Positions 12,059 through 30,731 of a stretch of 64,000 nt of DNA are shown here, piece by piece. The DNA comes from Mortierella sp. BCC40632 (lineage: Eukaryota > Mortierellomycota > Mortierellomycetes > Mortierellales > Mortierellaceae). The stretch spans positions 2,762,501-2,826,500 of the forward strand of contig WAEK01000007.1 of assembly GCA_011634665.1 (NCBI GenBank), read 5' to 3'. The translations under genes and the position numbers were made by a program. Within the stretch, counting starts at the first letter, position 1; every line of letters begins with the position of its first letter. The notes beneath the pieces are model-generated. The model saw only the letters and a list, made by a program, of their open reading frames with translations, ran no database searches and was not told where the DNA came from.

Positions 12059-12279
12059 CTTGGTGTTTAATGCAGATCGAAGAAAAGGATGATTAGAAAG
12101 ACAAGAGGCAAGAGAAAAAAAGACAACCACAAACGCCGACGTGACGCTCGAAAGCCACGCATCCGCGGCTAGAATTACGTCACCGTAACCAGCGCGAACG
12201 CGCGGACAATCAAAAAGGCACATTCCTAAGAATGGCCAGAGCGTGTTGGCAACACGCAAAGAAAATAACTGCTAGTCTG

Positions 12280-12650
12280 CTAGTCTGCTAGTTTTGCTAG
12301 TTTTGCAATGCTTCCATTATCCGTTGGGGCACTTCTCTTTTTTCCTGCTCCTTTGAATCTCGGCTCGCTCTTCCATGGCAAGCTACCATCCGTGGCTCGG
12401 GGGTGCAAGTAGTCCGGTCTTTCCTGTTCTTCGAGGTGGCCTAGAACAACATTTGCGATGTTATGCGCACCCAGTATGTCCCGATGTATGTATTTTTGGC
12501 AATTTGTACAGTACAGACGCCTAATGCTCTCGGTTTGGGCGACATAGTTGAAGCACTCTGGACACTTCTTGGAGGTAAGGTACTCATTCGCCCCCACCAC
12601 TAAATACCCAAGCGACCGAGCCTAATATCAGACATCAATTCTACGTCAGT

Positions 12651-12704
<54 letters not shown>

Positions 12705-12949
12705 GGAGTGAGAGAGACTTACCAACTTGACAAAGTAAGACTGGAAAGTTCCATGGAGACTGGACAGCTTCCCCTGCGAAGAAAAGTTTCCAAGACCGAT
12801 CGCTATGATTGCTTTGTTTTCTTCATCTTTCCTTTCCCCTGTCCTTCCGTCGATCATACGGAGAAGCCCGTCCGCCAAGAGTCGGTATTCTTCCTTCATT
12901 GCTTTTTTTGCGAACCATTCCTGTCTTTTAAACTTTCCCGATCCGTTAT
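12280..12949 (-). pseudogene. Gene A, 3' part: C-terminal Fanzor (TnpB-like) RuvC-II/zinc/RuvC-III segment
   Basis: Two exons: 12947-12723, then 12621-12280, joined in phase across an intron that holds a (CTTT)n tract. The product starts with GSGKFKRQEW and a helical stretch. It continues with IIAIGLGNFSS, then GANEYLTSKKCPEC with the Glu of the rearranged RuvC-II site, a second CxxC (YCTNC) closing the zinc ribbon, and HRDILGAHNIAN with the RuvC-III Asp. It lacks the upstream RuvC-I part. That part lies at 20079-21242 on the same strand and becomes contiguous and in frame if the element 12950-20078 and one AT are removed. I therefore read this as the displaced 3' end of gene A, not as a separate gene. 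Confidence 0.8.
12654..12703. repeat. (AAAG)n microsatellite
   Basis: About twelve copies of AAAG on the plus strand lie inside the small intron of the gene A 3' part. On the coding strand this is a CTTT tract between donor and acceptor, so it adds pyrimidines to the intron and does not disturb coding. Confidence 0.95.
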
Positions 12950-12991
12950 CCCTTAAACCGTAAGGTTTGGTAGGCAAATTTGCCGATTTAA
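12950..12991 (+). repeat. Left terminal inverted repeat
   Basis: It begins CCCTTAAACCGTAAG and includes the perfect 12-base palindrome GGCAAATTTGCC, then GATTTAA. It pairs with 20043-20078 with a 5-base gap and a few mismatches. Confidence 0.85.
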
Positions 12992-13126
12992 AAAAATAAT
13001 AATGAGTGGTTAGATTCCATTGAGCGAGCACAAAATACAGGGTATGTTTGTTTCAAACAAGAAATACTTACTGAAACAGGATAAATAATGTCGAGTTCCA
13101 CACTCGACTTTGGCTTCCCATTGTTC

Positions 13127-15889
13127 CTATTGACTTCGGCGCAAGAACCATGGCCACTCCATCTTCGACAGCCAGTGGTGAACCGCCATTGCCATGTTTT
13201 GCCCACCATTCACGTCGCGGTTGCGTGCTGACTCATGCTTGGCTTCTGTGTTGGCTCCCGCTGCACTGGCTCTACTGGACTTGATGTTATGACACTCTGC
13301 CTTGCAAATTATCGATCTCTTGTTCTCCTCCGTGCTGTCGCCACAGAGACAACATCGCTGCGATGTGTTGTACTCGTCAACCAGACACACAAAAATACCC
13401 ATCCCTAGTGCCTATTAGGCAGCAGTATCATATTAAAATCATAGTCTTGACAAAAATCCTTTGTCCTACGCCTTTACTTACCATCTGGCACAGTCTCTCC
13501 AGCACGAGATACGTTCCACTCGTTCCACCATTAAATGGCTTAAACACTCCGTCTCCAATGGCAAGAATGACCTGTCGCTTGGATGGCAGACTGGGCTTTT
13601 GGCAGGGGTTCTTGCATCTCCTCTGCTGTCTCCAGATTGGCGATGCTAACAGCCGTCTGCAGAATATGTGAAAGGCGCTGGTCTATCTCTGATCGATGTC
13701 TTTGCTGCTTTTGGTACTTGAGGATCTTGTAGGACATGGATCCGTAGAATGCTCCAAGCAACCCATCAGCACCAAGTTTCGACCGGACATGCTCCTCACT
13801 GTTCTTGGAGAGTTGTCGCAGTCGTGACTCTTCTGGAACCTTGCCAGGGTCCTCAACGGTTACTGGAACAATCGCTTGCTCTGCTGTATTGATATCATCC
13901 GTCTCCTTGGCAAGCTGCATCAGGTGCCTGATCCACTTTGTGTGCCTGTTGTACGTTCCCCTGGACAAGTGGTGATTTGAAGCCCGGTCGGGTCGGGCGC
14001 TATCAACTATCACCGCTGTGATGAGCTCGGCAATCCCAGGGTCAACCCCAATCACCACACAGCTTTCCCGACAAGCCTGTCAACTGTCTCCTTATTTTTG
14101 AAGAGCTCGGTGACATACGGGATAGAATTCCGACCACCGTTGAGGGGGTGTGCAAGAGATTTGCTGGCTTTTGGACATGGGGTAGTACTGCCTGTCGCCT
14201 CTGCATCGCCTTTAGGACTCTGAACCTTTTTGGTCTTGGGATCCAGTGCGCGATAGGCAAGTAACCGGAGCTGATATCCGTCTGTTACGATTGTTCCACG
14301 CAAACAATGTTTGTGGTGTGGGTGTAGCTGCGGGTGTTCGGTATTGGCTGATTTTACATCTAGATTGCCCATCTGATGACATTTCGCTGCCTTCAGTGCA
14401 GTGATCCATTCTTTTGCCTTTCCGACAAACCGACTCTTCAGCTCTCCATAGCTCCTCTTGGCCGCAGTCCCCTCAGGTTGTTCAGTATTGCTCTTCCCTC
14501 GCCCAGGCAATTGTTTGGCTGCCTCTTCAAGCTCCTCTTCCGCTGTAGCAACCGCCAAGCCAAAAGAGTCAAACAGTCCCGGAAGCTGGGATGTCGATGG
14601 TCTCCCCAACACAGGTTGTTCTGTCATAGTTGGTCTTTTGTCTTCCTCCGACAAAGAGCCTGTAGCAGATCTCGCCTGGATGATCTGAAGCCCTCTTTGC
14701 CGCCTCAGCCTGAGTGGAGACTCCCAGCAGTTCTTTGATTATCCTTTGTTTTGCTTCGTTGACACGGTCCTGTCGAAAGATTGCGCGGACAAGATACTGC
14801 TCGGGGACTGTGGGGAAGGCTGTCGTGTCTCGAACAGCAGGGGCCAATTTCATCCGCTCCAGAGCTGGTAGTTGGAGGTTGAGAATCGTGAAGACCTCGG
14901 CCTGGCTGTACGCTTTCGACACTCCACTTTCCTCCACTGCTGCCAACAACGCTGCACCCTCTGTCGATTGGGCCCATGTCGGGTTTCTTTGGCGTACCTA
15001 TAAAAGTTATCATGGTTAGGATATGTTGAAATGCTGGACAATTCAAACTCTCAACATGGAAAGGTTCATGCTACTTACTCTGCTGATCAACTTTGGGACA
15101 AACTCGACAAATGTCTTGCGCAATAATTTGTGAAGACTCTGCCCCGACCCTTCAAAGAAGCAGTGGGGTACTTGGCCCTGAAGGTGCGACTGAAATTGTT
15201 GTCGCTGCTGATCAAAATCAGTCCCGGCTCTCTCGGCAAAGTCGCTGACCACTTCCTTGGCGAGGTTCATGCCTGGTGTCCCTCGCTTTGTCTTGTCACC
15301 GCAGTAGAGGTAAATTATAAGTTGTCGACAAAAATCCTCTGTGTCTACCGTCTGTAACCTTTTTCGATCCTCTACTTGATTGTCCCCTGCAGAATACATG
15401 TTTGCGACTGTCCTGGCAATGAACCATTGGATGACATAGAGTGCAAGTTTAGTGGCCTCTGAGTTGCACTTTGCTATCGCTAGCAGTGTGTCACCAATGT
15501 ACTGTGCGGCTGCTCTGCGTTCTGTTTCTGATATAGAAGGAAGCCGTTCTTTGAGAACTGATTCTACTCGCCACTGGATTGGATCGCGCTTCTGGGTGAT
15601 ACAGTCAGATGTTGAGTTTAATACTTGGTCAATCAGGTTACCGGGCGATACTCTATTAGATGCTCCTGCTTCCGACTTGCTTTCTGCTCCCAGGGCCGTT
15701 TGAACAGCAAGTCTTGTAGCCTTTGCCCTCTTCAGCTTTCCGCGTCGTCGTTTTGTTAAAGGCTCCAGTGGGGTCCTTGCCTCACTTGCTTCGATCGTTG
15801 TCAGAGAATTCGCATCTTGTTCGTTTCTGTCATTCTCATCGGTTGGCGCTTCTCGCTTTACAGCCCTAGTGAGAAAGATGGGTTAATCC

Positions 15890-15930
<41 letters not shown>

Positions 15931-17523
15931 CCTTAACCCAAGCTGCAACCTATATTGAAACTTGCCTTTTGAGGAGCCGCTTATCGTGAACTGGCTGCTT
16001 GCTCACAGAACACTCCCGTTGTGGATTTTTAGATGTACTGGTCTCGACTCCCGAACGAGCTGTGCGCCAATTGTCAGTCTCGCCTTGACCAACAGCTGGC
16101 TCAGAGATCTCTTCTTCCTCTTCTTCCTTTCTCGGAAAGTTGTCAATCATTCCCATACCACGAGGCTGGGTGATTTTGAGAGTCGGGACATTTCGTTCCT
16201 TGGTCATATGTCTTGTAGCACCGCTCTCGGCCTGGATTCGCATGGCGTTTTCATTCCGCTGTTCATCAGCACGCCGAAACGAGAACGAAGGTCTTGACAA
16301 CGCTTGCGCTGCCACTATGCCTATACAAGTTTGAAAAAAAAAAAAAAAAGTTGATCATTAAAATAATGTCCCCTGTCATCAACTGGCTGCAGGCTTTGGA
16401 GAAGATTCAGTCCTACCCTGCGCCACTGCTTTCTCTTTTTTAATCCTAGTGTTGAGCTTGCGAAGCTCCTCGGGGAATTTCTTGGCTGCACTCAACAACT
16501 GGTCCGATAGGCAAAGTATCTCTGAGGGCGTCGAGGGAGGCACTAGTGGTGTCTCCTCTGCGTGGATGAAAATTTTGGTCGCATCGTCAAACTGGCTTGG
16601 ATCCACTTCAAGAGCTTTGGCATACCCTGCTAACAGCGCTTGCACCGTCCTTTGACCTGCAGGCAATCGATCCCATAGTCCAACAAGAATTTTCTGGTTC
16701 TTGTTGATGCCATACCCCTTGACATTTTCGCAATAGTCGTTCCCCGAGGTGATCGCCACTGCTTGCCATACCACAAAGTCCGGAACCCTCAGTTGTCCCA
16801 GGGCCTCGTCGTTGATCGTGTACAGCCAGAATGTGGACTTGATAGCGCGGTCTTGACTGATCAAATGAATGTTGGGGGTAAAGAGCATATCGCTATCGAC
16901 TGTCGCTACATAGATCCGTTGTCAGACCCCAATGCTTCGCGCCTAATGCAGTTATCGGTCTCGCCAGAGCAAACATGAGCGCGGTGGCCAAGAGCCACGA
17001 GGTCATTGGCAACCTTGACCCGCATGCCCATATCGATCCGTATTGAACACTTCCAGGAAGCCATCATGTTCACAAATGCCCGGAGTAGGCGTCGGCGCAA
17101 GTTGCGTGCTGAGCGATCCCCACCATCAGGATACTCCTGGTTTGGTTGAATTGCTGCGTTGAATGCGGACAGAGAGCTGGAACATTGCTCACGACTATCC
17201 ACTTCATTTTGCGATCGATGTTTCCTGGCGACGACCTTTTCAGCGATAGGGAGTCCGTCGATGTGGATAATCGCGTCATTGGAAAAGCTGAGTTTGAGTT
17301 TCTTGCTTATTGCTTTGGCGATCCAGTCGGGCTCTTCGTCTGGCTCCTTGCCCCTGGAAGCCAGGCGCAGTAATTTCTTCTGGAACCAAAAAAGAATGGC
17401 AAGGAGATAGGATAAATAGAGTGCAAAGAGGTCGACGTGGACAGAAGGAAGCTCTTTCGGATCTACTGCAGACCGTAGGATACCAGCTTTTGCAATAGTC
17501 TTCCAAGCTTGTTTGACTGTCAT
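13127..17523 (-). CDS. Gene B: XPG/FEN1-like flap nuclease fused to a Fanzor (TnpB-like) nuclease
   Basis: About 1,350 residues in five exons: 17523-16417, 16320-15966, 15865-15079, 14997-13482 and 13411-13127. The second intron is GC-AG type. N-terminal part: an XPG-like fold with VDLFAL, IHIDGLPIAEK, SGETDNCI, VATVDSDML and the H2TH-like SGNDYCENVKGYG, so every expected acidic position is filled. Middle: an acidic and basic linker, then helices. C-terminal part: CLRGTIVTDGYQLRLL, RuvC-I VIGVDPGIAELI, IGDGVFKPF, VDEYNTSQRCCLCGD (rearranged RuvC-II Glu plus zinc cysteines) and NRDVNGGQNMAMA (RuvC-III Asp). Exon phases agree across the linker, so it reads as one protein. Four one-base frame changes lie near 16903, 14640, 14060 and 13600. 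They may be decay or assembly errors. By motif family it should cut DNA, with a guide RNA for the Fanzor half; no guide locus was identified. Confidence 0.75.
15897..15931. repeat. Poly-T tract in a gene B intron
   Basis: An uninterrupted run of about 34 T on the plus strand (poly-A on the coding strand) lies inside the GC-AG intron between exons 2 and 3 of gene B. Similar runs sit in or beside many elements of this window. Confidence 0.9.
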
Positions 17524-17574
17524 GTTTTTTAATGGCTTTGTAGGCTAGTTGGGTGAATGTGAGAGGGGGGAGAA

Positions 17575-18125
17575 GTGCAAACAAACAAAAAAAGGAGATT
17601 TTTGTTATTTTCAACAGCCCAAATGCTCGTGGATGTGGGAAAAAGGACTATTTTGGGGGGGGGAGGGGGAAAGGACTATTTTGAAAAAAGGACTCTGAAA
17701 AAAAAAAAAAAGGACTCTTTCGAAAAAAAGGACTCTTTTGAAAAAAAAAAAAAAAAAAAAAAAAGACAGGCGCTGCTAATACTTACACTGGCACAACCTT
17801 TTCAAAGTACCAAATGAGGCGTAAAACCGTTGCCAATTTGGTCCGCTCAGGCCTTCTCCTGAGGAGAGGCCCGTGCTTGATGTTCCATACTCACATGCAT
17901 ACTGCCCCAAAACCTACTGCCCCAAAACCTACTGCCCCAAATCCTACTCTCTCTCATATCCTACTCTCTCTCAAATCCTACTCTCTCAAATCCTACTCTC
18001 TCATATATCCTACTCTCATATCCTACTCTCTCTCAAATCCTACTCCCCTCAAATCCTCTCTCTCATATCCTACTCTCATATCCTACTCTCTCATATCCCC
18101 TCTTTTTTTTTTTTTTTTTTTTGGA
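17575..18125. repeat. Degenerate minisatellite between gene B and K1
   Basis: At 17640-17760 the plus strand repeats AAAGGACTMTTTYGAAAAA-like units, and at 17885-18100 it repeats AAATCCTACTCTCTC and CCCCAAAACCTACTG-like units, ending in a 22-base T run. Related units (GGACTATTTCG and AAATCCTACTTTTC, mostly in the opposite orientation) lie near K2 at 26090-26310. The arrays lie upstream of gene B and downstream of K1. Long open frames here come from the periodicity and are not genes. Confidence 0.8.
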
Positions 18126-18270
18126 CAAATAACACGCAACACTCGAGGAGTGAGAATACATTCGTCCGGGTTTATCGACAAAAAGGAAAAAGAAAAGAGG
18201 AAATACACATGCTCTGTTTGCTATTTTTCATTGGGCCAAGTCGTTATCTTCAGAAAATGAGACAATGCGC

Positions 18271-19263
18271 CTACGCCTGAATGCATTGCCTCATGAGGGT
18301 CACGACAGCCTCGATTTGCTTGTTGCGGTGAGGGGGGATAAGAAGAAAGACTGCAGCCAAGAAAGCCAAAAGGAAGAGGTGACCTCGTGTCTTTACAGCA
18401 GCCTTTGATAAATTGTATTTCACTACCAGGAGCAGGTACTTTTGCTGGATCGCCTCGCGGTCTGTGCATTGGTCATCGGCGTGTCTCTTTTTCCACTCAG
18501 TCTTGAACCTTGACCTCAGGTTGATCAGATGCTGGACAACTGCTTGTTGCTTGCCTTTGTTGCCACAGTGGCAATTGCAAATTGCTATGAACCGGTATTG
18601 GTCTCCCGCGCTGCACCACACCAATGCGTTTGCAAAAGCCACTATCGCCTGTTCTCTCGTTTGAGAATCGTGGATGTCGATGTCGCAAAAGATTTCGTTT
18701 CCTTCTTTAAGGATGATGTTTAGGGGATTCTCGCCTTTGATAGCATCTTGAGAGCGGAGCCAATTCAGGGCGGTAGAATATTTGAGGCGTCGCTGTAAAA
18801 TGGCGGTTGATGGCTGATATGCAACAGACCTCTGGTTCTCTTCCGGGATAGGATCATCCAGGTCAATGGACAGAGTAGGAGGAGACTCTAGTATGATTGT
18901 TTTGGGATAGCTTGGAGGTGACTGAATCTGTGTTGGCTGGTGTTCTCGACGATTGTTGTTCTCCACTTCCATATTATCTTTTGCTAGCCTGGCTTTGAGC
19001 CGTCCTATCGCACTGGCCACGGATGATGAGCAGGACCAAGACTTGGCTGCTTGACTGTCTAAGGCATAGACGGAAGGGTTGCGGGAATTGGTGGGGAATG
19101 GCATCATTCTCGCTCTGGCTCCGGTGTTCATGCCATGGTCAATATCTTCGACAGGGGTGCCGTAAACAATGAGATCCTGTGGTTGTTCCTGAGTCAAGGA
19201 GTCTTCAGTCACATTGATCTTGTTGTCAGTGTCAAGAATGCTGCTGTCAAAGACCATTTTCAT
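18271..19263 (-). CDS. K1: unknown protein, family repeated four times in this window (330 aa)
   Basis: An intact single-exon frame. The N-terminal half is acidic and low in structure (YGTPVEDIDHGMNTG, ALDSQAAKSW). The C-terminal half is shared with K2 and K3: LQRRL...ALNWL, NPLNIILKEGNEIF, AFANALVW, DQYRF, a basic segment LRSRFKTEWKKRH, KYLLLVVK, then a hydrophobic block HLFLLAFLAAVFLLIPPHR that could be one membrane helix or a buried core, and a C-terminal MRQC. It lies upstream of gene B on the same strand within the 7.1-kb element. I do not recognise a fold or function. Conservation across copies suggests it was under selection at some time. Confidence 0.65.
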   Translation of the reverse strand: MKMVFDSSILDTDNKINVTEDSLTQEQPQDLIVYGTPVEDIDHGMNTGARARMMPFPTNSRNPSVYALDSQAAKSWSCSSSVASAIGRLKARLAKDNMEVENNNRREHQPTQIQSPPSYPKTIILESPPTLSIDLDDPIPEENQRSVAYQPSTAILQRRLKYSTALNWLRSQDAIKGENPLNIILKEGNEIFCDIDIHDSQTREQAIVAFANALVWCSAGDQYRFIAICNCHCGNKGKQQAVVQHLINLRSRFKTEWKKRHADDQCTDREAIQQKYLLLVVKYNLSKAAVKTRGHLFLLAFLAAVFLLIPPHRNKQIEAVVTLMRQCIQA

Positions 19264-20042
19264 CAGTATCGGCTGGAAAGGGTAGCCATTATCTCTTTCT
19301 GCGGGGGGTGGGAGGGTTTTATTTTTTTTTTCTGGCCGGACCGCACGGACCTTCTATTGATAGACACAGTGGATGGTGCCAAGGCCATGGATCAGATCCC
19401 CAGCAGAAGTGAAACATGTATATGGGCTCCTTAAGTTGGTTCTGAGAACTGGATTAGAGGTGTTTGAGAGGGGACCCGACTACTCGGGGAGAGGAACCCC
19501 TCTCGGGTCTGCGATGCCTTTTTGGGATGTGCAGGAAAAAAATGAAAAAAGCTTATTCCATATGGAGTAAGGATGCGATTATGATTTTGTGAATCTCTGG
19601 TCTTCAACACTTAGAAGGAACAGAGAGTGTACAAGAGCCTCTCTGGCAATGATTTCAAACACAGGAACCAAAAAAAGGCGCGTTTGAAAGCAGCACTCCT
19701 ATTGAAGGTACAAACAATCTTGATCGCAATGAACAGACTGCCCACATGGCAGCAAGATAGAGACCGAGCTTTCCCCAAGTAGTGTAAAAACATACCCAAG
19801 CCATGTCGCGCTTAACTGAAACTAAACCTGTCATCATCGAGGGCTACCTGGACTTGAGATAAGAGGAGCACGTTTAACCATACGGGGATCAATCCAGCAG
19901 CTCAAGTTGAAGTGGATCGGGCTTGTGTCCATTCCTTGCTTCGGTGCGTAGTTTGAATTGCTAGTTTCTGACCTTAGAGATTGGGGGGATGTCTCATAAA
20001 AAACTTTTGAGAAAACTGCTGAAAACCATCAAAATGTTAAAG
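19264..20042. other. K1 upstream region with conserved K-element 5' flank
   Basis: Bases 19425-19570 match the sequence upstream of K2 (about 27000-27150) and the inverted copy at 39420-39545. The shared core includes ACCCGACTACTCGG and CCTCTCGGGTCTGCGAT followed by CCTTTTTGGGATGT. Because it sits upstream of two K genes it may hold their promoter. The rest of the stretch up to the inverted repeat shows no gene; the Fanzor C-terminus expected for gene A is absent here. Confidence 0.55.
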
Positions 20043-20078
20043 TTAAATGGCATTTTTGCCTAGCTTACGGTTTAAGGG
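20043..20078 (-). repeat. Right terminal inverted repeat
   Basis: Read on the minus strand it begins CCCTTAAACCGTAAG, then CT, AGGCAAAAATGCC and ATTTAA. It matches the left repeat at 12950-12991. Confidence 0.85.
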
Positions 20079-23000
20079 ATAGAATCGATCGAGGTATGGT
20101 TCGGCTTCGGAATAGCATCCAAAGTACTTGCTGATATCAGCATTTTGCCCACGTAGCGGGGGGAGCGAGGACTCGATTTGCATGACACTCGTGCAGGATC
20201 CACCTTCGGCCTGTTTCTTCCAATTGTGCTCTTTTCTTTGGTTTATCCAACGCCGAAGCCTGAAGAGTGGTTGGTAAATGGACTTCTGTTTGGCTACCAG
20301 ATTGAAATACTTTGGTTGCCGTTGCTCCAAGTCATCAATGCTCGCGATGGCGGGAACTTCTTGGGTGTTCATACGTTTTCGTTTCCCTCGTCGCTTCTTG
20401 CCCTTCCTGTTCCCTCCCCGTTTACCCCTTCGCTTGCGACGTTTTGGTAGAGTGGAGCGTAGAACTGTCGCACCTACAACACAAGTTTGACCTAAATCAA
20501 TCCCAAGGATCTTTACATGCTCACGAACTTGGTTGGGGGTGCACCCAAGTTTGTTCTTGACATCCTGTGCAGTCTGGAAAACATTCCGGACCTCCGTGAG
20601 AGGGTCGTCAGTGCCGTGGGTTGTGGAAAAAAGCCTGTCGGGGAGTAAACTCTTCTTGTATCGTTTAAACTTGACTGACAAGAGTTCTCTCAGCTTAAAG
20701 CCGAGTAGCTGCAGTCTGTGACCGTCGGTTCGAACCGATCCCCGCAAGAAATACCCTTTGGTTAGATACATTCTTGGATCAAAGTCTTTGTGCCGTAGCG
20801 TGTTGATGTGCTCTCTAATTGCGTTGTGTGTAGGCAGCTGAATTGCTCCAATGTATCCCAGTTTCCCTTGCTGACGGGTTGATAGGTTCGTTTGTTTGAG
20901 GGGAGCAATAAACTTAGCTATAAGTACACCAAAATCTGCACGCGGCATCCAGTCCAAAACAAGCCCAGACGGAGTAAGGTGCCAAGTGTCGTCGCTTGGA
21001 AACGACGCCTTTGACATAGTCTCCATCAGATAATAGGTACTTGGATGTTCACAGAGGAACGTTCCAAACTCGTACTCCGTGAATGTCACGGAGCCGTTTT
21101 TTATCGGCGACAGAGGGATGAGTCTCCAGGGGTTTCCACCAACTCTGTTTAAAAAGACGAAGTTTTCTACAGCTGACAAATTGTCCTTAATCTCGATGGA
21201 TATCTTGGGATCAACTTTACCGGTCCTTTGCATGTGAGCAAGCTACAAAAAGAAGAGCAGAGTAAGGTTTCAATTTAGGTTATGAACTGCCTTTAGTGTT
21301 TCTCAAAATAATGAATGCATTAAACGAATACGCGCACTACCTTTGCTTGTAAATCAAAAAATCTATTATTGTAGTGTTTCTGGAGTTGAACACGTAACTG
21401 CGTGGCGATACAGCGTGTAATCCCCTCAGGCTTGTATCCCCGCGTCCGACTTTACTGTCGGAGTGAAACCCCCTCCTCCATAATGCCTAAGGCCTTTAAC
21501 CTGTCCCAGAATCTCCTGGGGATTGTCGCTTGCGGTTCATTGCCTGTGTAAAGCGACCTCAGGAATGAGCGAACAAACAGATCAACCTTCTGCTCTTGAT
21601 TATCTGATCCATTTCTAGGCACATATGGCTTTATGGTTCGGACACATAGATGGTCTAGCAGCTCACGATCCTGCTGACTGACTTCAGAAGCAACGACAGT
21701 GTCGATGAACTTGCCAATAATTTGCTGAAAACGGCGTTTTATGATGTTGGCGTCATGAACGGCCTGGCGTAAACAGTCCAATATCACTCCTGCCACAGCT
21801 TGATCTTCTGGTAGTGCCGCATAGATGTTGCGCCGAAGACTTCCGAGTTCTAGCGCCACGGTCGGATGCTCTTGTTCTAGACCCTTCAAGTTCTCGTCGC
21901 GTTGTGGAAAACCTTTTGATAAAGTCGCTCGGAGACCATAACTGGTCTTTCTCAGAATTAGTTGGCTCGGTATCGGAACGGTTGGGAGGGTGCTTCCATG
22001 GCTTCTGCTCGTATTGTAGCATTATCTCAGGTGGTGGGTGTTCTTCGGGTTCACCTCTAGTTTTGTGTCTGTACCGTGTTCGGTCGGTGCCTGAGGTGAT
22101 GGTCCTGAATGGGTTAAAATCCTGACTGAGCCTGTGTCGCTGTTTGTGGGGCTGCATTCTATTATGTTAAACAAAGGACACAGCAGTTAAAATCAGGAAA
22201 TATCACATTCGCGGTCAACATCATAGAAGCTACAACGTACTTTTTCCCCTTGGATCGATTCTGCTGTTGTTGCCTCTGATGCTCTTTGGCCATTGTACAC
22301 AAGGCATCAAACTCTCCACGAAGGCCGTAATAATCCAAATCGTTCGGTATCGTCAAAGTCGCGTCCGATGAGCTGATTGGTGTTTGCCGCAGCTCGATGA
22401 AAACTTTGATACTCTCTTTAAACGACTCTCCAGTGAGGCCCAGCTTGATGCTCTTTAAGGATAAGTATCCGTCGATAATGTCGTTCGGGTCTATCAACCC
22501 AAAGAGCAGAAAACAAAAGTAGAAAGAAACGATAAGTTAAATAGTTGTTGTAGCAGAGAGCAGCTCAATTAAAGATACAGGTTTGAAACATGATTTACCT
22601 CCACTATTGTCCACATCGTCCTTGATTAACTTGTAGTTCGTTGCGACCCCAAACTGACGCAGATTCTTGCTGTAGTCGTTTGTTGTAACGATCCCGAGAG
22701 CAGTAAGCTGCGCCCGACTCAAACTTAGCTGCTCCAGAATCTGCGGAATATGATAGCAGTGGGTCCTTAGTCGAGATCCCTGTCCAACGGGTTGCCAAAT
22801 CGTTGAAACTGTCGAATAAATGAAGAAATCGCTGTCTATGGATACGACCACATCATCCACTCCAATGTTTTTGGCAATCTCGACATCGGCCTCACTAGGA
22901 CATTCAACTACTTTCCATCCTTGATCCCTCATGTAGGAGATAAAAGCACGTCGATCTTCTAGTCGCCAGTAAAAGGCCGACCTAAGCGACTTCCATACTT

Positions 23001-23482
23001 TTCGGAAGTGCTTTTTCCTTGGTCTTGAACCCTTGATGACGTGGGACTTGAAATCGTTGATTGCCTCTCGTGCTCGTACAAGAGCTTTATCACGCGACTT
23101 TTTACGATTCTCATGAGTCCTCTGTTTCTCCAGACATGGCGACCCATCAACATAAATGACAGTGTTTTCTTTGTCGCCTTTCTCAGAATTAAAAAAAGCT
23201 GGGTTAATAGAAATACTATGATGTCCTCAAACTATGCTCCCTCTCGTGGCAATTTCATTTACCTATTCTACGTATTGCGGATTCAGTAATGCTGTGTGCC
23301 TGCTGGACAGCATGGGTGCTATACGCGTAGCGGATGGTGGCGTAAAACGCGCCCAGAAGATCGACACAAATGGTTCGAGAAGGAGATGGCGTTTCGCAGC
23401 AGGAACAGCATGCTGGTTCCTCTCGGTTCCGAAAGCGCGAGAGCTTTCGTCGAATCCATTGCCAAAGTCCAATCACCCCCAT
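20079..23482 (-). pseudogene. Gene A, 5' part: XPG-like nuclease plus Fanzor RuvC-I segment
   Basis: Exons: 23482-23263, 23198-22599, 22490-22241, 22158-21341 and 21242-20079, with phases that fit. Exon 1 starts MGVIGLWQWIRRK, the classic XPG N-terminal signature, then ICVDLLGAF. Exon 2 has VIYVDGSPCLEKQRT, CPSEADVEIAKN, VVVSIDSDFFIY and VTTNDYSKNLRQFG. Exon 5 has FLRGSVRTDGHRLQLLGF, RuvC-I ILGIDLGQTCVVG, a strongly basic RKRRGKRGG patch, and FRLRRWINQ...ESSLPPLRGQ. Three lesions are seen: a one-base frame change near 21890, an in-frame TAA at 21452-21454, and the 7.1-kb insertion after 20079. With these it should be inactive today. It starts only about 80 bp from the MULE transposase, head-to-head. 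Confidence 0.8.
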
Positions 23483-23563: not shown

Positions 23564-25730
23564 GTGACTGCTGTGCCTTTCATTTTAACTGCTGCGCAAA
23601 TCACCACGTCCTTGACAGTAAAGGACATTTTGCCATATTCTCCTGACTATGACATTCATGCCATTGTCAGCCCTCATCCCATCCCTGCCGATTCGGCTAT
23701 TCCTCTTCGAATGGTTTTCTCAGTCTACGGATTTAAACAGTTCTGGCACCAAGAAAGAGACGCCTTCCAATGACAACGCTGCAGTGAAGAGAACTCTCGC
23801 ATTATCGAGTTTGACAATGGTAGCTTGGACAGTCTACTTCCAACTCACAAGGAATTGCACATAGGGCCAGGCTGACTAAGGAGCTTCGACTGGACATGGC
23901 AATATGATTGCAGGCGACGGGCCTCGAGTAAAACACGCCCACAAGGAATCAGTTGGCACAGGATGCAAGGCACACATCAGAATCCAGAAGCCCATTGGAA
24001 AAGACTGTGTTGCCATCGAGTATCATTGGAGGCACAACCACGGAACTTTTATGTCGGACAGGGCACGTTTACCTTTGGGCACGAACGAGTTAAATTGGAT
24101 CAAGTCGAACGTCAACAAAGGCCCAGAAGACAATCTTTGTTCGGTAAGGCATTGCCACTCAATGCAACAAATACTAATACTACTTCCAACAAGCTTGAAC
24201 GCAACAGTGCTCTCTCCTCTGGTCTTTTGATCGACTACAAGGATGTGCATGGTGTGTTTTATCGTCGACAGATGAGAGAAGTCACCAAAGACCAGGATGT
24301 CTTCAAAAGTATCCATCTTTGGATCAGGGATATCAAGATGAGAGGAAGAGAAGGCATGTTCCAGATCGAGATGGAGGGTAAAATGAAGTCATACTTGGTT
24401 GCATGGTGTACAAAATTCCAGCTGGAGGTAGGCTTTAGTCCGTATTTACGTTGCTAACACTATGCTAGCGTTTTCATGGCTGATTCTAATCTACTTCCAT
24501 GTGTGATTGATCCCTTAGATTATGCAACGCAACCGCATCGTAGCTTGCATGGACTCCACACATAAGGTGACCAGGCCATTGATGCCTAATATCAAAAAGA
24601 TCAGAGAGGCCTCAGCTTTGTTCACCATCCTCGCCAAGGACGTCGTGTTACAGAAAGGCATTCCCATTGCATACTTGATTTGCAGTACCGAATCGACGTA
24701 AGAAATTGGCTTGCCAAGAGGTTAGTAACATGAAGCATTGTATCACCCCTAACTAACGTCTGTAGGTTTCTGCTCAAGAAATGGCTGAGCTGGCTTAAGG
24801 ATACATGCCAGTTTAAAGTGTCAAAGTTCATGATGGATTGCTCACCGGTAGAGACTGAGGCCGTACAAGCTATCTTTCCACAGACTGCCATTTATTACTG
24901 TCTCTTCCATGTGGCCCAGATATGGGAAAGGCGCATGAGAAAAGATTGCAATGTAGGGCAACTATCTTGAATGATATCAAAAGTCATTGACTAGTTCATT
25001 ACTTAATAGGTCTTTCTCACTGATAGAAGGAACACTGGCGCCAAATGGAACACGTGCTAAAAGCCATACGCGGTGGTAGATCCAATGACGAGCTGGATGG
25101 ATTGTGGCAAAAGTTCAGAGTCGCCTTTCCAGGAACTGAGCGCTTTTGTACTTTTCTGGAGAGAAACTGGCTTGCTCGTGTGAAGAGGGGAAAATGGGTG
25201 CTTTTCGTCCGAGAGGTATGCGGAATGGTTCGCTGTGACGGACGAGATGTCTAGACTTCCCCACTCATATACCTTTTTGTCGCCAATAAAACGATCAACA
25301 CATCGACACGAACAACCTGTTGGAATCTTGGTTCCATACTCTCAAGTCTCATTATCTCGATGGCAGGACTGGATACAGGGCTGATGTTGTCATGTTCATG
25401 CTACATGGAGAGATAGAAAGAGACTTCAAGGCTCAGCTTCTCAAGGTTGTTCATGACGTCCAAACAGTGAAACACTCTGAGTATGATAATGAGAGAGAAA
25501 AGGATGCCATGGCAGTGGATATCACCGGGGCCAAATCCATGATTTCAAAGAAGGCATCAGCTAAAATGGTATGTATCGAAAGAAAACTAGCCTCCCTAGC
25601 TTTTGTGAGATTTTTCCTGACTGATCGCTTGCCAGTTCATGGTCCAGTCATTTAGTGTTCCTGGAGTAGAATATTCGGTAGCCATGAATAGCGAGAATGA
25701 AGCTCTTTGTTCATGCACCTGTCCTGATTA
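23564..25730 (+). pseudogene. MULE-type transposase, 5' part
   Basis: Mutator-like transposase with a DDE catalytic core. Coding pieces read VKDILPYSPDYD and VYGFKQFWHQ near 23610-23770, a FLYWCH/WRKY-like zinc region GCKAHIRIQKP...EYHWRHNHGT near 23960-24050, then the catalytic core: IVACMDSTHK (first Asp, near 24540), FMMDCSPVETEA (second Asp, near 24830) with YYCLFHVAQIW, and NNLLESWFHTLK (Glu, near 25320). Several introns or frame changes separate the pieces. It ends at 25730 inside the SWIM zinc motif (CSCTCPDY), where a 1.6-kb element is inserted; the rest is at 27339-27693. Confidence 0.8.
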
Positions 25731-25939
25731 CTAGCCTAGTTTGCCCTGCGTACCGCAGGGATCCCCCATTGCATCTCTAACTGATGTTGGAGGCATAGTA
25801 AGTTGAGCTATCTCCTGTGAATATGAACAGGCATGCTTGGTGGGACGGATTGTCCTTGTAAATGGCTCCAGTGTATGTCTCTCAGTGCACGGTCTTCAAA
25901 CTGACATAATCATGAACTGTATGGAGAGAGAGAGAGAGA

Positions 25940-25960
25940 AGAGGAGAGAGAGAGAGAGAG
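25940..25960. repeat. (GA)n microsatellites in the K2 element
   Basis: Short GAGA runs occur near 25925-25960 and a longer one at 26346-26385. They are simple sequence with no coding role. Confidence 0.8.
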
Positions 25961-26089
25961 CTTTTGACATTCCTAAGACTTAAGCTGTTCGTTACGTAGT
26001 AGCTCTATTTTGCATAGCTGTGGCACGCAGGACCAAGCACTTGTATTCAAACTCCTGCCTTTGCTGAATTGAACATTTCTCAAATTGAC

Positions 26090-26312
26090 CTCTTTTCTAA
26101 ATGGTCCTTTTTTCAAATCCTACTTTTCCTCGAAATAGTCCTTTTTTTCAAATCCTAATTTTCTCGAAATAGTCCTTTTTCTAAATGGTCCTTTTTTCAA
26201 ATCCTACTTTTTCGAAATAGTCCTTTTTTCAAATGGTCCTTTTTTTCAAATCCTACTTTTCTCGAAATAGTCCTTTTTCTGAAATAGTCTTTTTTTTTTT
26301 TTTTTTTTTTTT
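26090..26312. repeat. Minisatellite downstream of K2
   Basis: Units of the form CGAAATAGTCCTTTTTTC and AAATCCTACTTTTC alternate about eight times and end in a 22-base T run. The same two units occur around 17640-18100 near K1, so they appear to belong to the K-bearing elements. Confidence 0.85.
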
Positions 26313-26346
26313 GGGTTTGTCCGACCAAAGTGGATGAAATGAAGTG

Positions 26347-26389
<43 letters not shown>

Positions 26390-26476
26390 GGGATGGATAC
26401 AGTAAAGACCGGACTACCGTTTTTTCAGAAACCTACTTTTTTTATTTCTTTTTTTTTTCTTTCAAACACCAAGTGT

Positions 26477-26995
26477 TTATTGATTAGCTTTGCATCGACC
26501 CATTAGGGCCACCACTGTCTCAAGTTGCTTGTTGCAATGGGAAGGAGTGAGGAGAAAGACCGCTGCCAAAAAGGTCAATAGGAAGAGGTGACCAGGTGTC
26601 TCAACATGTGCCTTTTTGAGTCTGTGTTTCATCAATTGGATTAGGTACTTTTCTTGAATCGCCTTCACCCCAGTACCTTGATTGCTAGCTCCTCTTTTAT
26701 TCATGGCACTCTTGAAGTTCCATCTCAGGTTTTTCATGTTTCGGCTTAGTGAGTGTCGCTGGTCGTCCTGGTCCGAGTGGCAGTCGCTAATGGCTTTGAA
26801 TCGGCCTTGATCGTTCGCCCTGCTAGAGTCGTACCACCACACCAGTGCCCGAGCAAACGCCTCTACTGCCTGCTTTCTTGCCTGAGGGTCATTGATATCA
26901 ATTCCATGAAAGACACTGTACCTGTCATGTCCTACTACTGTACATGGTCGAGAAAGCATGCCGACGCATAGAGAAACAGTGCGAAGCGAGGGCAT
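26477..26995 (-). CDS. K2: shorter member of the K family (172 aa)
   Basis: An open frame matching the C-terminal half of K1 and K3: VFHGIDINDPQARKQAVEAF, ARALVWWY, DQGRFKAISDCH, LRWNFKSAMNKRG, KYLIQLMKHRLKKAHVETPG, then the hydrophobic HLFLLTFLAAVFLLTPSH and the final MGRC. The acidic N-terminal half of K1 is missing, so it is either a 5'-truncated copy or starts on a new codon. No Fanzor gene lies in the same element. Function unknown. Confidence 0.6.
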   Translation of the reverse strand: MPSLRTVSLCVGMLSRPCTVVGHDRYSVFHGIDINDPQARKQAVEAFARALVWWYDSSRANDQGRFKAISDCHSDQDDQRHSLSRNMKNLRWNFKSAMNKRGASNQGTGVKAIQEKYLIQLMKHRLKKAHVETPGHLFLLTFLAAVFLLTPSHCNKQLETVVALMGRCKANQ

Positions 26996-27338
26996 GGGAT
27001 CCTCAAGTTGGTTCTGAGTAATCGATTAGAGATGTCTGAGAGAACCCGACTACTCGGTGAAAGGAGCCCCTCTCGGGTCTGCGATACCTTTTTGGGATGT
27101 ATAAAGATTAAAAAGGTCTACCCCACATGGAGTGAGAAAATGATTACGATTTCAAGTTTTTCTCGATGGTCCATGAATGAAAAAGCACATTTGAATGGAT
27201 GGATCTTACTCATTTTCAAAGGAGCATTTGCTCATTCACTTTGATGAGGACATGGGTTCGATTCAGAAGGGGCATCTTAAGGGATTTTCCTTCTTTGGGC
27301 ATCGATACCTTTTTAGGCTGTGTCAGTTACGTGCGTCA

Positions 27339-27693
27339 TCCTGATTATGCCAGACATCAGATACCCTGCAAGCACATGTATCTGATTTCAAAAATCTATG
27401 ACAGGTACAAGATCGCATACTTTGAGCGTGCCAGAACAATTCAAGCGCAGGAAGCAGTTCAAACTGGAGAAACTCTAGGACTTCCCCCGGAGAGCGTCAT
27501 CTCGCCGTATCTGATGAACCAATTGGAGGTGCAGAGAAATGGAAAGCGCAGTGAGGACAAAAGGAAGAGGGACGAAGCCAGAGTTGCTGAAATACGGGAC
27601 ACCAATGAACAGGTGAAAAGACTGTGGAGTCAGTTGGGTGTCATTATGGATGGCCCCAGGAAGCGGCACTGTTCATTGGCCCCTCTCAAATAA
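27339..27693 (+). pseudogene. MULE-type transposase, 3' part
   Basis: This continues the frame of 23564-25730 after the K2 element. It holds ARHQIPCKHMYLI, the last Cys and His of the SWIM zinc motif, then a helical, charged tail (SEDKRKRDEARVAEIRDTNE) and a stop at 27693. Apart from the insertion the C-terminus is open, which suggests the K2 insertion is fairly young. Confidence 0.8.
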
Positions 27694-28188: not shown

Positions 28189-29157
28189 CTATTGTTCGAT
28201 CTTGCATTGATCTAAAAGTGCCGCCACAGCCATAATTTGCCTTTTGCGATGTGGAGAGATAAGAAAAAAGGCCGCTGCCAAGAAGCCTAGTAGAAAGAGG
28301 TGACCAGGCGTCTTGACAGTTGCTTGCTTGAGTCTGTTCTTGACCAGCTGCATCAAGTACTTGTGTTGGAGAGACTTGGTAGTGGTCTCTGCATCATCGA
28401 CTCGTCTCTGGTTCCAATCCTTTTTGAATCTGCACCTCAAGTTCTTTAGGTGTGGACTCAATGATGGGCCTTGGCCATTGTTATCCAAATAAAAGTCGCT
28501 GATGGATGTAAATCGGTCCTGGTCATCCTTGTTGCTTGGTTCGTACCGCCAAACTACTGCCCTTGCAAACAACACGAGAGTCGTCCTTATCGCTTGCGGG
28601 TCATGGACATGGACCCCACGAAAGACTTCCTGCCCCTCGGCCAGGATGATGCTCACTGGATCATACTCTGCAATCGCACCTGGAGTGCAGAGCCATTGGA
28701 GCGTCTTGGATTGATTGAGCCGTCGTTGTAGGAGACGATTTGATGGTAGTTGTTCCCTACCCACGGTCTCCTCATCTTCTGTCGACTGAATCGACTCCAC
28801 AAGAGATTCTTCTGGGGCAACCATTGACTGATGTTCTTGGATGAGGCCCATTCTTTCTTCCACCGTTTCTTCAGTTGCATTACTGTCATACATGGCTGTT
28901 GGTGTCCAAGACTGGCCTGCCAGACTATCCAAGACATAAGTGCCTTGATATGACCCGATGAAGGGAAGCCGGGTCCACTCCTCCTGGCCAGATGATCCAG
29001 CCTGCTCGCCGTTGTTGTGAATGATGGGAAGACTGTTCTCAACACACTCTTCTTCCTCTTGAGCCAAAGACCCTTCTGTTTCTTTATCCATCTCGAATCT
29101 CTTGTGAATCAATGGACCACAAGTCATCGTCTGGACCGTCGGTGCTTTCAACGGCAT
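28189..29157 (-). CDS. K3: member of the K family (322 aa)
   Basis: An intact frame. The N-terminal half is acidic (ETEGSLAQEEEECVE, STEDEETVG) with a short YVLDSLAGQSW box like ALDSQAAKSW in K1. The C-terminal half follows K1 closely in layout: LLQRRLNQSKTLQWL, IILAEGQEVF, ARAVVWRYE, DQDRFTSISD, LRCRFKKDWNQRR, KYLMQLVKNRLKQATVKTPG, hydrophobic HLFLLGFLAAAFFLISPHR, and LLDQC at the end. It is transcribed away from F3, whose start is 265 bp off, so K3 and F3 form a divergent pair. Function unknown. Confidence 0.65.
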   Translation of the reverse strand: MPLKAPTVQTMTCGPLIHKRFEMDKETEGSLAQEEEECVENSLPIIHNNGEQAGSSGQEEWTRLPFIGSYQGTYVLDSLAGQSWTPTAMYDSNATEETVEERMGLIQEHQSMVAPEESLVESIQSTEDEETVGREQLPSNRLLQRRLNQSKTLQWLCTPGAIAEYDPVSIILAEGQEVFRGVHVHDPQAIRTTLVLFARAVVWRYEPSNKDDQDRFTSISDFYLDNNGQGPSLSPHLKNLRCRFKKDWNQRRVDDAETTTKSLQHKYLMQLVKNRLKQATVKTPGHLFLLGFLAAAFFLISPHRKRQIMAVAALLDQCKIEQ

Positions 29158-29421
29158 GGGTTGCTAGCAGTGTGGTCATTGCAATGGATCGGTTGGGGCC
29201 AAAGTCTCGACCCTTGACCCTTGACCAATTTAAAAGAATCCAAGCAAGGTGCATGGTCCTTCAGTCTACGCCAATGGTAGGCATGCTTTGGCCTTACCCA
29301 AACTTTGTGGTCCTTTTTTTTTTTTTTTTTTTTTTTTCCAAAGTGGGATAGAGTTTTTTCTAATATCCTCTTTTGACACTCTGTAGATGATTCTAACACA
29401 ATCAGCCAAGTACAAGAAGCG

Positions 29422-30731
29422 ATGGCAGAAGAACAGGACGACATGGACACCAGTATGCAGTCGATCCAGCCTGGAGATATTAGCGTGGAGCAGGAAGGAC
29501 CCTATGGTGCAGGAGGGGAGCAAATGAATGTCAGTTCCCAAAGCACAGACCCCGACATGGATACGCTGGAAAAGATGAGGCTACCGAAATCTCACAAGAT
29601 CACCTCCGCGCGGATCAACGACATTTCATTTTCCAAAAAATTCCAACGGAGCCGAGAAAAAAGATTTAGAGCGGATCGAGCTGCACAAAATGCTTTGAGC
29701 GAGATATCAAAGGAAGAGAACAGCCTGAAGCGGGCGTTGACAGCAGAAGAGATCGAGAAAGCCCAAAGAGTTCGACGCAAACAGAGAGAGACGCTGCAGA
29801 GATTCTACCAGTCAAAGCGCGCGCTGAAAGAGCGGCATACGCAAGATTTGCGAACGAGGAGAGGGTGGGCGATTCTTGGGTCAGAAGAGCGACGGTTTGT
29901 CAGTCGTCAGGGTAGAGAGGGACCGATTGTGGCGACTGGGCAAGTGTCGCAGGTGGATGGATACTGCAGCGAGTGTCAAAGATACCACCTTCCGCGAGGC
30001 ATAGGAGCAGAGCCATTTGAGCATGTCGCCGAGTGTCCCAAGAGAAAGGTAGTTGTGCTTCCGATTATGCTGACGGGGACAGCGGGGACATGTGTAGGGT
30101 CTAGGATAGGAGGACATGCACGACGTGGAGGCAACAAGTTGCGAAAGGAGCATGGGCGATACTGCCCCGTGTCGATGACGGACGAGTATCAGACGAGCAA
30201 AACGTATGTGTATTGCTTTCAACGAATGGAGCTTGCACGGTCGAGGAGGGTAGTGAATGGAGTGAGGAAGATGGTGAGGATTCATGGGGCGGTAGAGTGT
30301 GTTAACTCAGAGTGTCCATCGTTCAAGGTCGGCTACACGATGAAGGGACGAGACCAAAGTGCGGCGATGGCGATAGCGATATCAGGAGCGTCCATTCTGC
30401 TCAACCAGAACCCACTCCCACCATTCTCAAGGGCTTCCCAGGACGATGTCCTTTCTGCAATCCAAGAACGCCAGTCAAATACTGGATCGAAACAGCCTCC
30501 AACATCTATGCAGATGCAATGGTGGCCCCCGGCAGAGTCGGGACAATGGTGAGTACAAAAATCTCTTTTGCATGCATTCTTTTCTTCCTCTTGCTGCATG
30601 ATCTAATTTTTTAATTTTTTGTTTGCGATAATATTTGAGTAGACCCATTGAAAGATCTCAAAGACATAGTCGCCAAGTTGGAGGAGGCTGTGAATTTAGC
30701 CCAGGAAGGAGACAAGTTGCACGTCAAATAA
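29422..30731 (+). CDS. F3: truncated Fanzor-like protein (zinc ribbon and RuvC-II/III only)
   Basis: A 376-residue frame starting MAEEQDDMDTSMQSIQ. An acidic N-terminus is followed by a long basic helical stretch, a Cys/His cluster YCSECQRYH...HVAEC, GTCVGSRIGGHARRGG, then PVSMTDEYQTSK (RuvC-II Glu), the zinc region with VNSECPSF, and MKGRDQSAAMAIAISG (RuvC-III Asp). The RuvC-I Asp motif is absent, and the first zinc cysteine after TSK is Tyr here, so it should not cut DNA alone. A GTGAGT donor after 30550 may lead to a short terminal exon near 30644-30731 reading like KDLKDIVAKLEEAVNLA, but the phase is unclear. It may be a domesticated binding protein or just a relic. Confidence 0.65.

Follow-up and report, generated by a model that had tools for sequence, protein, structure and literature searches.

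Gene models join an XPG-type nuclease to a Fanzor in a transposon gene family of Mortierellaceae

Results

Two nested genes in the window

The window analyzed here is a stretch of 64,000 nucleotides from Mortierella sp. BCC40632 (contig WAEK01000007.1, positions 2,762,501 to 2,826,500, or C7:2762501-2826500 in our contig numbering), and the genome searched comprises 49.9 Mb in 62 contigs. On its minus strand the window carries two genes in which a nuclease domain of the XPG type is followed by a Fanzor, a TnpB-derived nuclease of the RNA-guided type. We refer to the inner gene at 17523-13127 as gene A and to the outer gene at 23482-12280 as gene B, letters that a preliminary description of this DNA possibly used the other way round. 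Both genes were present in that description. It did not report that gene A lies within gene B or that there is a link to a Mutator-like transposase, and its range (13127-23482) omitted the C-terminus of the gene B Fanzor at 12280-12948.

Gene B consists of six exons. Exons 1-3 encode the XPG-type nuclease: exon 1 (23263-23482) contains its start (MGVIGLW...VDLLG) and closes with a GT donor in agreeing phase, exon 2 (22599-23198) contains the core with the VDG, SEAD, DSD and NDY motifs, and exon 3 (22241-22490) contains the C-terminal portion of the XPG region, the latter two with matching splice ends and phase. Exon 4 (21341-22158), homologous to a single exon in the loci L022 and L023, leads through the linker into the N-terminal half of the Fanzor. 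Exon 5 encodes REC/WED and RuvC-I as judged by sequence motifs. Its first piece (20080-21242) includes the TDG motif of WED and the GIDLG of RuvC-I; just below 20080 the reading frame is interrupted by a 7.1-kb element and resumes at 12948 with a second piece (12723-12948; NGSGKFKRQEW...FVKL), which was placed by the frame of the empty site. Exon 6 (12280-12621), where the frame ends, provides the alternative RuvC-II glutamate (NEYLTS), the zinc cysteines and RuvC-III (HRD), as located by alignment. Splice sites and phases are consistent across exons 1-4, and hand counting gave consistent phases from exon 4 to 5 and from exon 5 to 6 when a 1-bp indel is discounted. This indel, relative to a copy on contig C1, lies in exon 4 together with a TAA at 21452-21454 that the C1 copy also has; with the inserted element they make up the damage to gene B.

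The inserted element, element A (12949-20079, minus strand), lies within exon 5 of gene B and is bounded by the terminal inverted repeats CCCTTAAACCGTAAG and CTTACGGTTTAAGGG. Its scripted length of 7,131 bp includes one flanking base per end. Copies outside gene B (L010, L011 and L009) share its ends, and the element was found at C3, at C27 and at C11, there with a disturbed far end. Removal of element A with a 2-bp AT duplication yields an in-frame DRFYNGSGKF that resembles the FYN of relatives. TA was considered as the target duplication and is less likely because it gives a stop, whereas AT keeps the frame, a choice made on three independent sites only. At all three of them (window, L010 and L011) TATA surrounds the insertion.

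Gene A is the XPG-Fanzor gene of element A, so that gene A and gene B are nested mobile genes. Its XPG part starts at 17523, two linker introns follow at 16321-16416 and 15866-15965 (GT-AG and GC-AG, phases agreeing), and the Fanzor part extends to 13127; the model draws on a TNB match and on copy comparison and includes 1-bp indels. In the window copy, 560 aa are free of stops from the DSD motif through both linker introns toward the Fanzor half. Compared with the four other gene A copies the window gene shows 1-bp differences, one of them at 16924, a position at which L010 and L011 retain the XPG frame. Since every copy has indels of its own, decay and residual assembly error are indistinguishable in gene A.

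Searches of both segments with Pfam profiles, which had been suggested earlier, supported gene B: XPG_I (PF00867) matched at 22537-23226 with 26.4 bits (cut-off 24.9) and TNB (PF07282) at 12280-12621 with 39.3 bits (cut-off 26.3). They did so less for gene A, whose TNB score of 23.1 bits is slightly under the cut-off and whose XPG part gave no Pfam match. The gene A copies L011, L010 and L009 did match a profile of the XPG domain of the lineage of gene B (B-type), with E values of 1e-11, 1.5e-9 and 5e-5. As neither copy in the window is intact, function must be judged from relatives.

Gene models place XPG and Fanzor parts in one gene

We searched the genome with PF07282, which gave 48 hits, and with the XPG domain of gene B, which gave 60 hits that were merged into 47 loci; all of these search counts are lower bounds. 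In 23 of the 48 TNB hits a B-type XPG domain was located upstream on the same strand at a distance under 5 kb, compared with 0.11 expected. The spacing was 2.6-3.2 kb in 21 of these pairs and 0.5-0.7 kb in the other two, and only two pairs within 5 kb had any other arrangement. The gene B pairs of the window and of C1 lie further apart because of the element A insertion. Among loci of the gene A lineage (A-type), 21 of 26 Fanzors had an XPG domain upstream, the distance being 1.3-2.0 kb in 20 cases and 39 bp in the remaining one. By hand count, 41 fusion loci show regular spacing or a known insertion (21 + 2 + 20 - 2, the loci on C5 and C17 being in both lists), and many of them are damaged. 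The earlier view that more than a chance fusion is involved is thus upheld, and the 'two copies' of which it spoke are an understatement. A further A-type XPG-Fanzor subfamily was noted at C20:84101, C4:2275823, C9:1225530 and C24:325728; all four loci are Fanzor-paired, and three of the four contain long open XPG frames (479 aa).

By hand count, 16 of the 48 TNB hits remain without an XPG partner. We considered whether XPG-less Fanzors form a separate class and rejected this: nine of these loci (L014, L018, L019, L024, L027, L030, L031, L032 and L034) align with the fusion only past residue 455 and have the appearance of 5'-truncated copies, and L021 retains fragments of the XPG region (this look at truncation covered ten of the 16).

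Individual gene models span the junction. In L026, six exons encode a protein of 1346 aa without an internal stop, and the four splice choices considered all remain open (1339-1357 aa). In each of L022 and L023 the match to the Dissophora globulifera protein P0002 (residues 267-640) lies in a single open exon, which leads from within the XPG fold (residues 2-308) to the Fanzor half. Slightly fewer than 8,000 word-sharing candidates were scored in each of two protein searches, which led to twelve proteins (P0001-P0012), and among the candidates scored all twelve come from genera placed in Mortierellaceae. The gene models of P0001 (Mortierella sp. AD094, 1315 aa), P0002 (1166 aa), P0005 (Entomortierella parvispora, 1320 aa; annotated as a 'putative transposase', with a start that falls within the XPG region) and P0007 (M. 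alpina, 1329 aa) each cover both parts. A partial protein, P0006, is named 'Rad2 nuclease', and P0011 has an unrelated N-terminus and was excluded from alignment A4. No A-type relatives elsewhere were found among 7992 candidates scored, and no viral relatives were confirmed in the viral contigs searched.

At the level of gene models, XPG and Fanzor thus form a single predicted protein and a standing transposon gene family in Mortierellaceae. The fusion that the preliminary description had put forward, and had made dependent on other genomes carrying both domains in one transcript, is borne out at this level by the four Mortierellaceae models and by the bridging exon of L022 and L023.

Active-site residues and class assignment

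The A-type and B-type lineages share about 20% identity in each half, in line with the deep divergence claimed for the two window genes, and the two halves have descended jointly. The N-terminal half was recognized as an XPG/FEN1 fold. We checked six acidic columns, which we take to be the metal-binding positions of FEN1, and found all six kept in 14 of 14 sequences, so that the acidic positions read from the window genes hold across the family. The XPG_I profile scored above its cut-off in P0011 (27.5) and below it in L026 (15.0), P0001 (16.1), P0005 (19.5) and P0007 (23.5), and no XPG_I match was listed for P0002 in Pfam. TNB scored above its cut-off in L026 (44.4) and P0001 (51.9) and below it in P0007 (16.7), where the match is partial. 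Purifying selection was seen in one A-type comparison.

In the C-terminal half, all 11 aligned C-terminal exons, those of gene A and gene B among them, have a glutamate at the alternative RuvC-II position. The RuvC-I motif DPG is present in gene A, L035 and L036. By position, the WED motif is TDG in eight of 14 sequences, among them both window genes, and TNG in the other six, among them L026. Profile A4 retrieved no TnpB or Fanzor chain from the PDB at E 0.01, and a Fanzor-only profile retrieved LaTranC at E 0.0027. In the parts of PMC10711439 that we used, Fanzor1 is set apart by DPG (D-Phi-G in TnpB), by the alternative glutamate and by a TDG motif in WED. Judged by motifs, the A-type members fit Fanzor1 (DPG, alternative glutamate, TDG), with the TNB of gene A slightly under the Pfam cut-off.

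B-type fusion genes often reside in Mutator-like elements

We found an element of about 6.9 kb in four copies (L015, L016, L017 and L029) that are 97.5-99.1% alike and contain a B-type fusion together with a divergent gene. This gene has FAR1-like, MULE and SWIM matches: SWIM scores above its cut-off of 19.6 in L017 (28.9) and L026 (23.8), MULE at 21.3-21.6 is below 27.6 and FAR1 at 19.0 is below 28.1. The same layout is found in L026, L020, the window and C1. In the window, a remnant of this divergent Mutator-like transposase lies at 23622-25655 on the plus strand (PF10551, 21.6 bits against a cut-off of 27.6; relatives in L013, L017, L026 and others), is interrupted near 25.7 kb and is followed by a diverged C-terminal piece at 27181-27693. 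Over 25655-27693 (plus strand), where the transposase next to gene B is interrupted, its C-terminal piece resembles the C1 copy to no more than about 70%. Overall, the transposase adjoins eight of the 14 XPG-bearing B-type loci for which at least 4 kb of upstream sequence was available; beside L021, L022, L023, L025 and L033, a degenerate locus, none was found, and the fragments next to L028 are all on the same strand.

The elements are flanked by 8-bp target duplications at C1 (by script) and at L015, L016 and L029 (by eye); none was seen at L017, and for the window copy the left-hand duplicate was not found. Mutator-type elements make target duplications of 8-11 bp. Terminal inverted repeats were absent from the four copies except for one 11-bp match in L016, in a search that would miss short repeats, and because none were found beyond this match we call the B-type elements only 'Mutator-like'. 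Similarity between the window and C1 copies stops precisely at the right terminus, and the C1 copy is flanked by an 8-bp duplication of its own. On these grounds we dropped the idea that the nest on C1 arose by segmental duplication; in the simplest case gene B moved as one unit with element A inside it. TGACGT-like motifs occur close to B-type insertions (at most a few tens of bp away; window 12150, L013, L015, L016 and L029) and also inside the B-type right end; they may reflect a target preference near promoters, an impression gained without statistics.

A hairpin at two B-type right ends

The right end of the element of gene B (12150-12260, minus strand) folds into a strong hairpin (z -6.0) adjoining the terminus ...GATGCGTGGCTTTC. 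The window shares this terminus with C1, L015, L016, L017 and L029, and it was also recorded in L012. Two B-type right termini have such a hairpin, with z values of -6.0 and -5.6. Since the scaffold of a guide RNA is expected at the right end, the hairpin could be a candidate guide-RNA scaffold; it could equally be a structure bound by the transposase. In other Fanzor1 systems, according to PMC10711439, the RNA extends into the flank for some 15 nt past the target duplication.

Other open frames of the window

Element A contains, upstream of gene A, an open frame of 360 aa (18271-19353, minus strand). With the minus-strand frames at 26477-27025 and 28189-29163 it forms one repeated family (182-360 aa); the frame at 18271-19353 has 88 matches in the genome, near several Fanzor elements and also elsewhere. 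A Pfam search with the frames at 18271-19353 and 28189-29163 gave no match. On the plus strand, an open frame of 391 aa at 29377-30552 was likewise without a Pfam match.

Discussion

We wondered how a transposon might benefit from a Fanzor that is fused to a second nuclease-type domain. Enzymes of the XPG, FEN1 and EXO1 type work on 5' ends, flaps and bubbles. In the scheme that we tentatively favor, excision by the transposase would leave an empty donor site, which the Fanzor part would cut with a guide RNA derived from the element's right end and its flank. The 5' ends so produced, whether flaps or overhangs, would be trimmed by the fused 5' nuclease, and the break would thereby be committed to homologous repair on the sister or allele in which the element has remained. 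RNA guidance, nuclease activity of each half, end trimming and retention are all inferred in this scheme. We give slightly less than even weight to the central claim that a guided cut of the empty donor site combined with 5'-end processing favors homologous repair from the element-bearing copy. With more reserve we propose that the fusion may be a natural two-nuclease RNA-guided enzyme that makes a guided double-strand cut, processes the 5' ends immediately and steers repair to homologous copying.

Several observations weigh against this proposal or the models on which it is built. Four other gene A copies are 1-2 bases shorter directly before the first linker intron; the linker phase of gene A is therefore not transferable to them as they stand, and the phase agreement through the linker that had been described holds for the window introns at 16321-16416 and 15866-15965 and not for these copies. 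The stretch around the XPG DSD motif (residues 180-193) was poorly modelled, and the Fanzor half, in which the kinked REC2 helices and overall fold of Fanzor1 were looked for, had low confidence in both structure models, the second of which (399 aa of gene B) reached a predicted local distance difference test (pLDDT) score of 47.6 and was left unused. In 11 of 14 Fanzor halves, that of gene B included, RuvC-I reads DLG or DAG instead of the Fanzor signature DPG, and for this reason the B-type proteins, which keep the alternative glutamate and TDG or TNG, are best called 'Fanzor-like'. A closer A-type pair showed weak constraint (0.015/0.032 and 0.116/0.175). Element A has no recognized transposase, and there was no unusual right-end fold at element A (z -0.02) or at L014 (z -0.43). 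Finally, 5' overhangs cannot be assumed: SpuFz1 leaves them, whereas the consulted sections of PMC10432273 report mixed, blunt and 3' ends for GtFz1, NlovFz2 and MmeFz2.

Some copies are frameshifted in or near the linker, as would be expected if the fusion were an annotation artefact of two co-linear neighboring genes. We find this scarcely credible and rejected artefact and chance neighborhood alike, given the co-location, the regular XPG-Fanzor spacing at the counted loci, the open exon that bridges XPG fold and Fanzor half in L022 and L023, the phase-consistent introns of L026 and the window copies, the conserved linker motif and the single-gene models of four other species. For a fused protein, other roles have to be considered. 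The XPG half might trim flaps, hairpins or gaps at the ends of Mutator-like elements or at the new insertion, with the Fanzor RNA tethering the fusion to its element. A transposase next to eight of the 14 B-type loci considered and the 8-bp duplications would suit such a role, but A-type elements retain the fusion without a recognized transposase and no divergent transposase was found near L021, L022, L023, L025, L028 and L033, and we regard it as improbable.

We hold it to be just as doubtful that the XPG half mainly binds DNA structures or recruits R-loop, replication or repair factors and that its cutting is unimportant. The excerpts of PMC11423790 provide a precedent in the cyclophilin-binding FRI domain of PpFz1, but all 14 sequences keep the six acidic columns in spite of an identity of only about 20% between the XPG parts of the two lineages. 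Less probable again is a fusion that acts chiefly against rival copies, its guides cutting related elements or empty alleles and its XPG half hindering rejoining, as a form of drive or of competition between elements. Here the 41 loci and several subfamilies in one genome, one of them nested in another, would fit, but nesting alone shows merely that one element jumped into another. If instead the guided break serves to copy the element back, a fused 5'-end processor is what would be expected. If it is a two-nuclease enzyme of the proposed kind, the protein would amount to a homing or retention device built into fungal transposons and to a cut-and-resect genome editor supplied by nature, offering a natural design for editors that favor homologous repair. 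As a natural fusion in many copies it also provides a direct route to asking what Fanzors do for their transposons.

We found no description of an XPG-Fanzor fusion in the literature searched, which excluded supplements and subscription papers and contained one ambiguous passage on a Fanzor and a flap endonuclease. In the portions of the Fanzor literature consulted, RuvC is the single nuclease of the effector; the fusion adds a domain of the 5' flap endonuclease/exonuclease class. With Fanzor1 (SpuFz1, PpFz1) it shares the alternative RuvC-II glutamate, the C4 zinc ribbon, a TDG-type WED and carriage by eukaryotic transposons, as far as the passages of PMC10711439 go. It differs in the added 5' nuclease-type domain and in its length of about 1,170-1,350 aa, most Fanzor1 proteins having 600-700 aa in the excerpts of PMC11423790, and the B-type members differ in having DLG or DAG where Fanzor1 has DPG. 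From the XPG/RAD2/FEN1/EXO1 family of 5' nucleases it differs in being a portion of a transposon protein that is fused to a nuclease of the RNA-guided type. The closest comparison in a related fungal group are the Mucoromycota Fanzor1 elements ROr-4, PBl-3 and MCi-4, in which a Fanzor likewise resides in a Mutator-type element. As described in the text of PMC3627910 available to us, which mentions no XPG domain, these carry terminal inverted repeats and 9-bp duplications and lack a MuDR transposase, whereas the B-type elements have 8-bp duplications, a divergent transposase and the XPG fusion, and inverted repeats were not found. With TnpB of IS200/IS605, which makes 5' overhangs, the fusion would share the role proposed in the parts of PMC8612924 consulted, namely a guided cut at the element-free donor joint that leads to restoration of the element by copying. 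TnpB would leave the processing of the ends to the host, whereas the fusion has a 5' nuclease-type domain built in that may take over this step.
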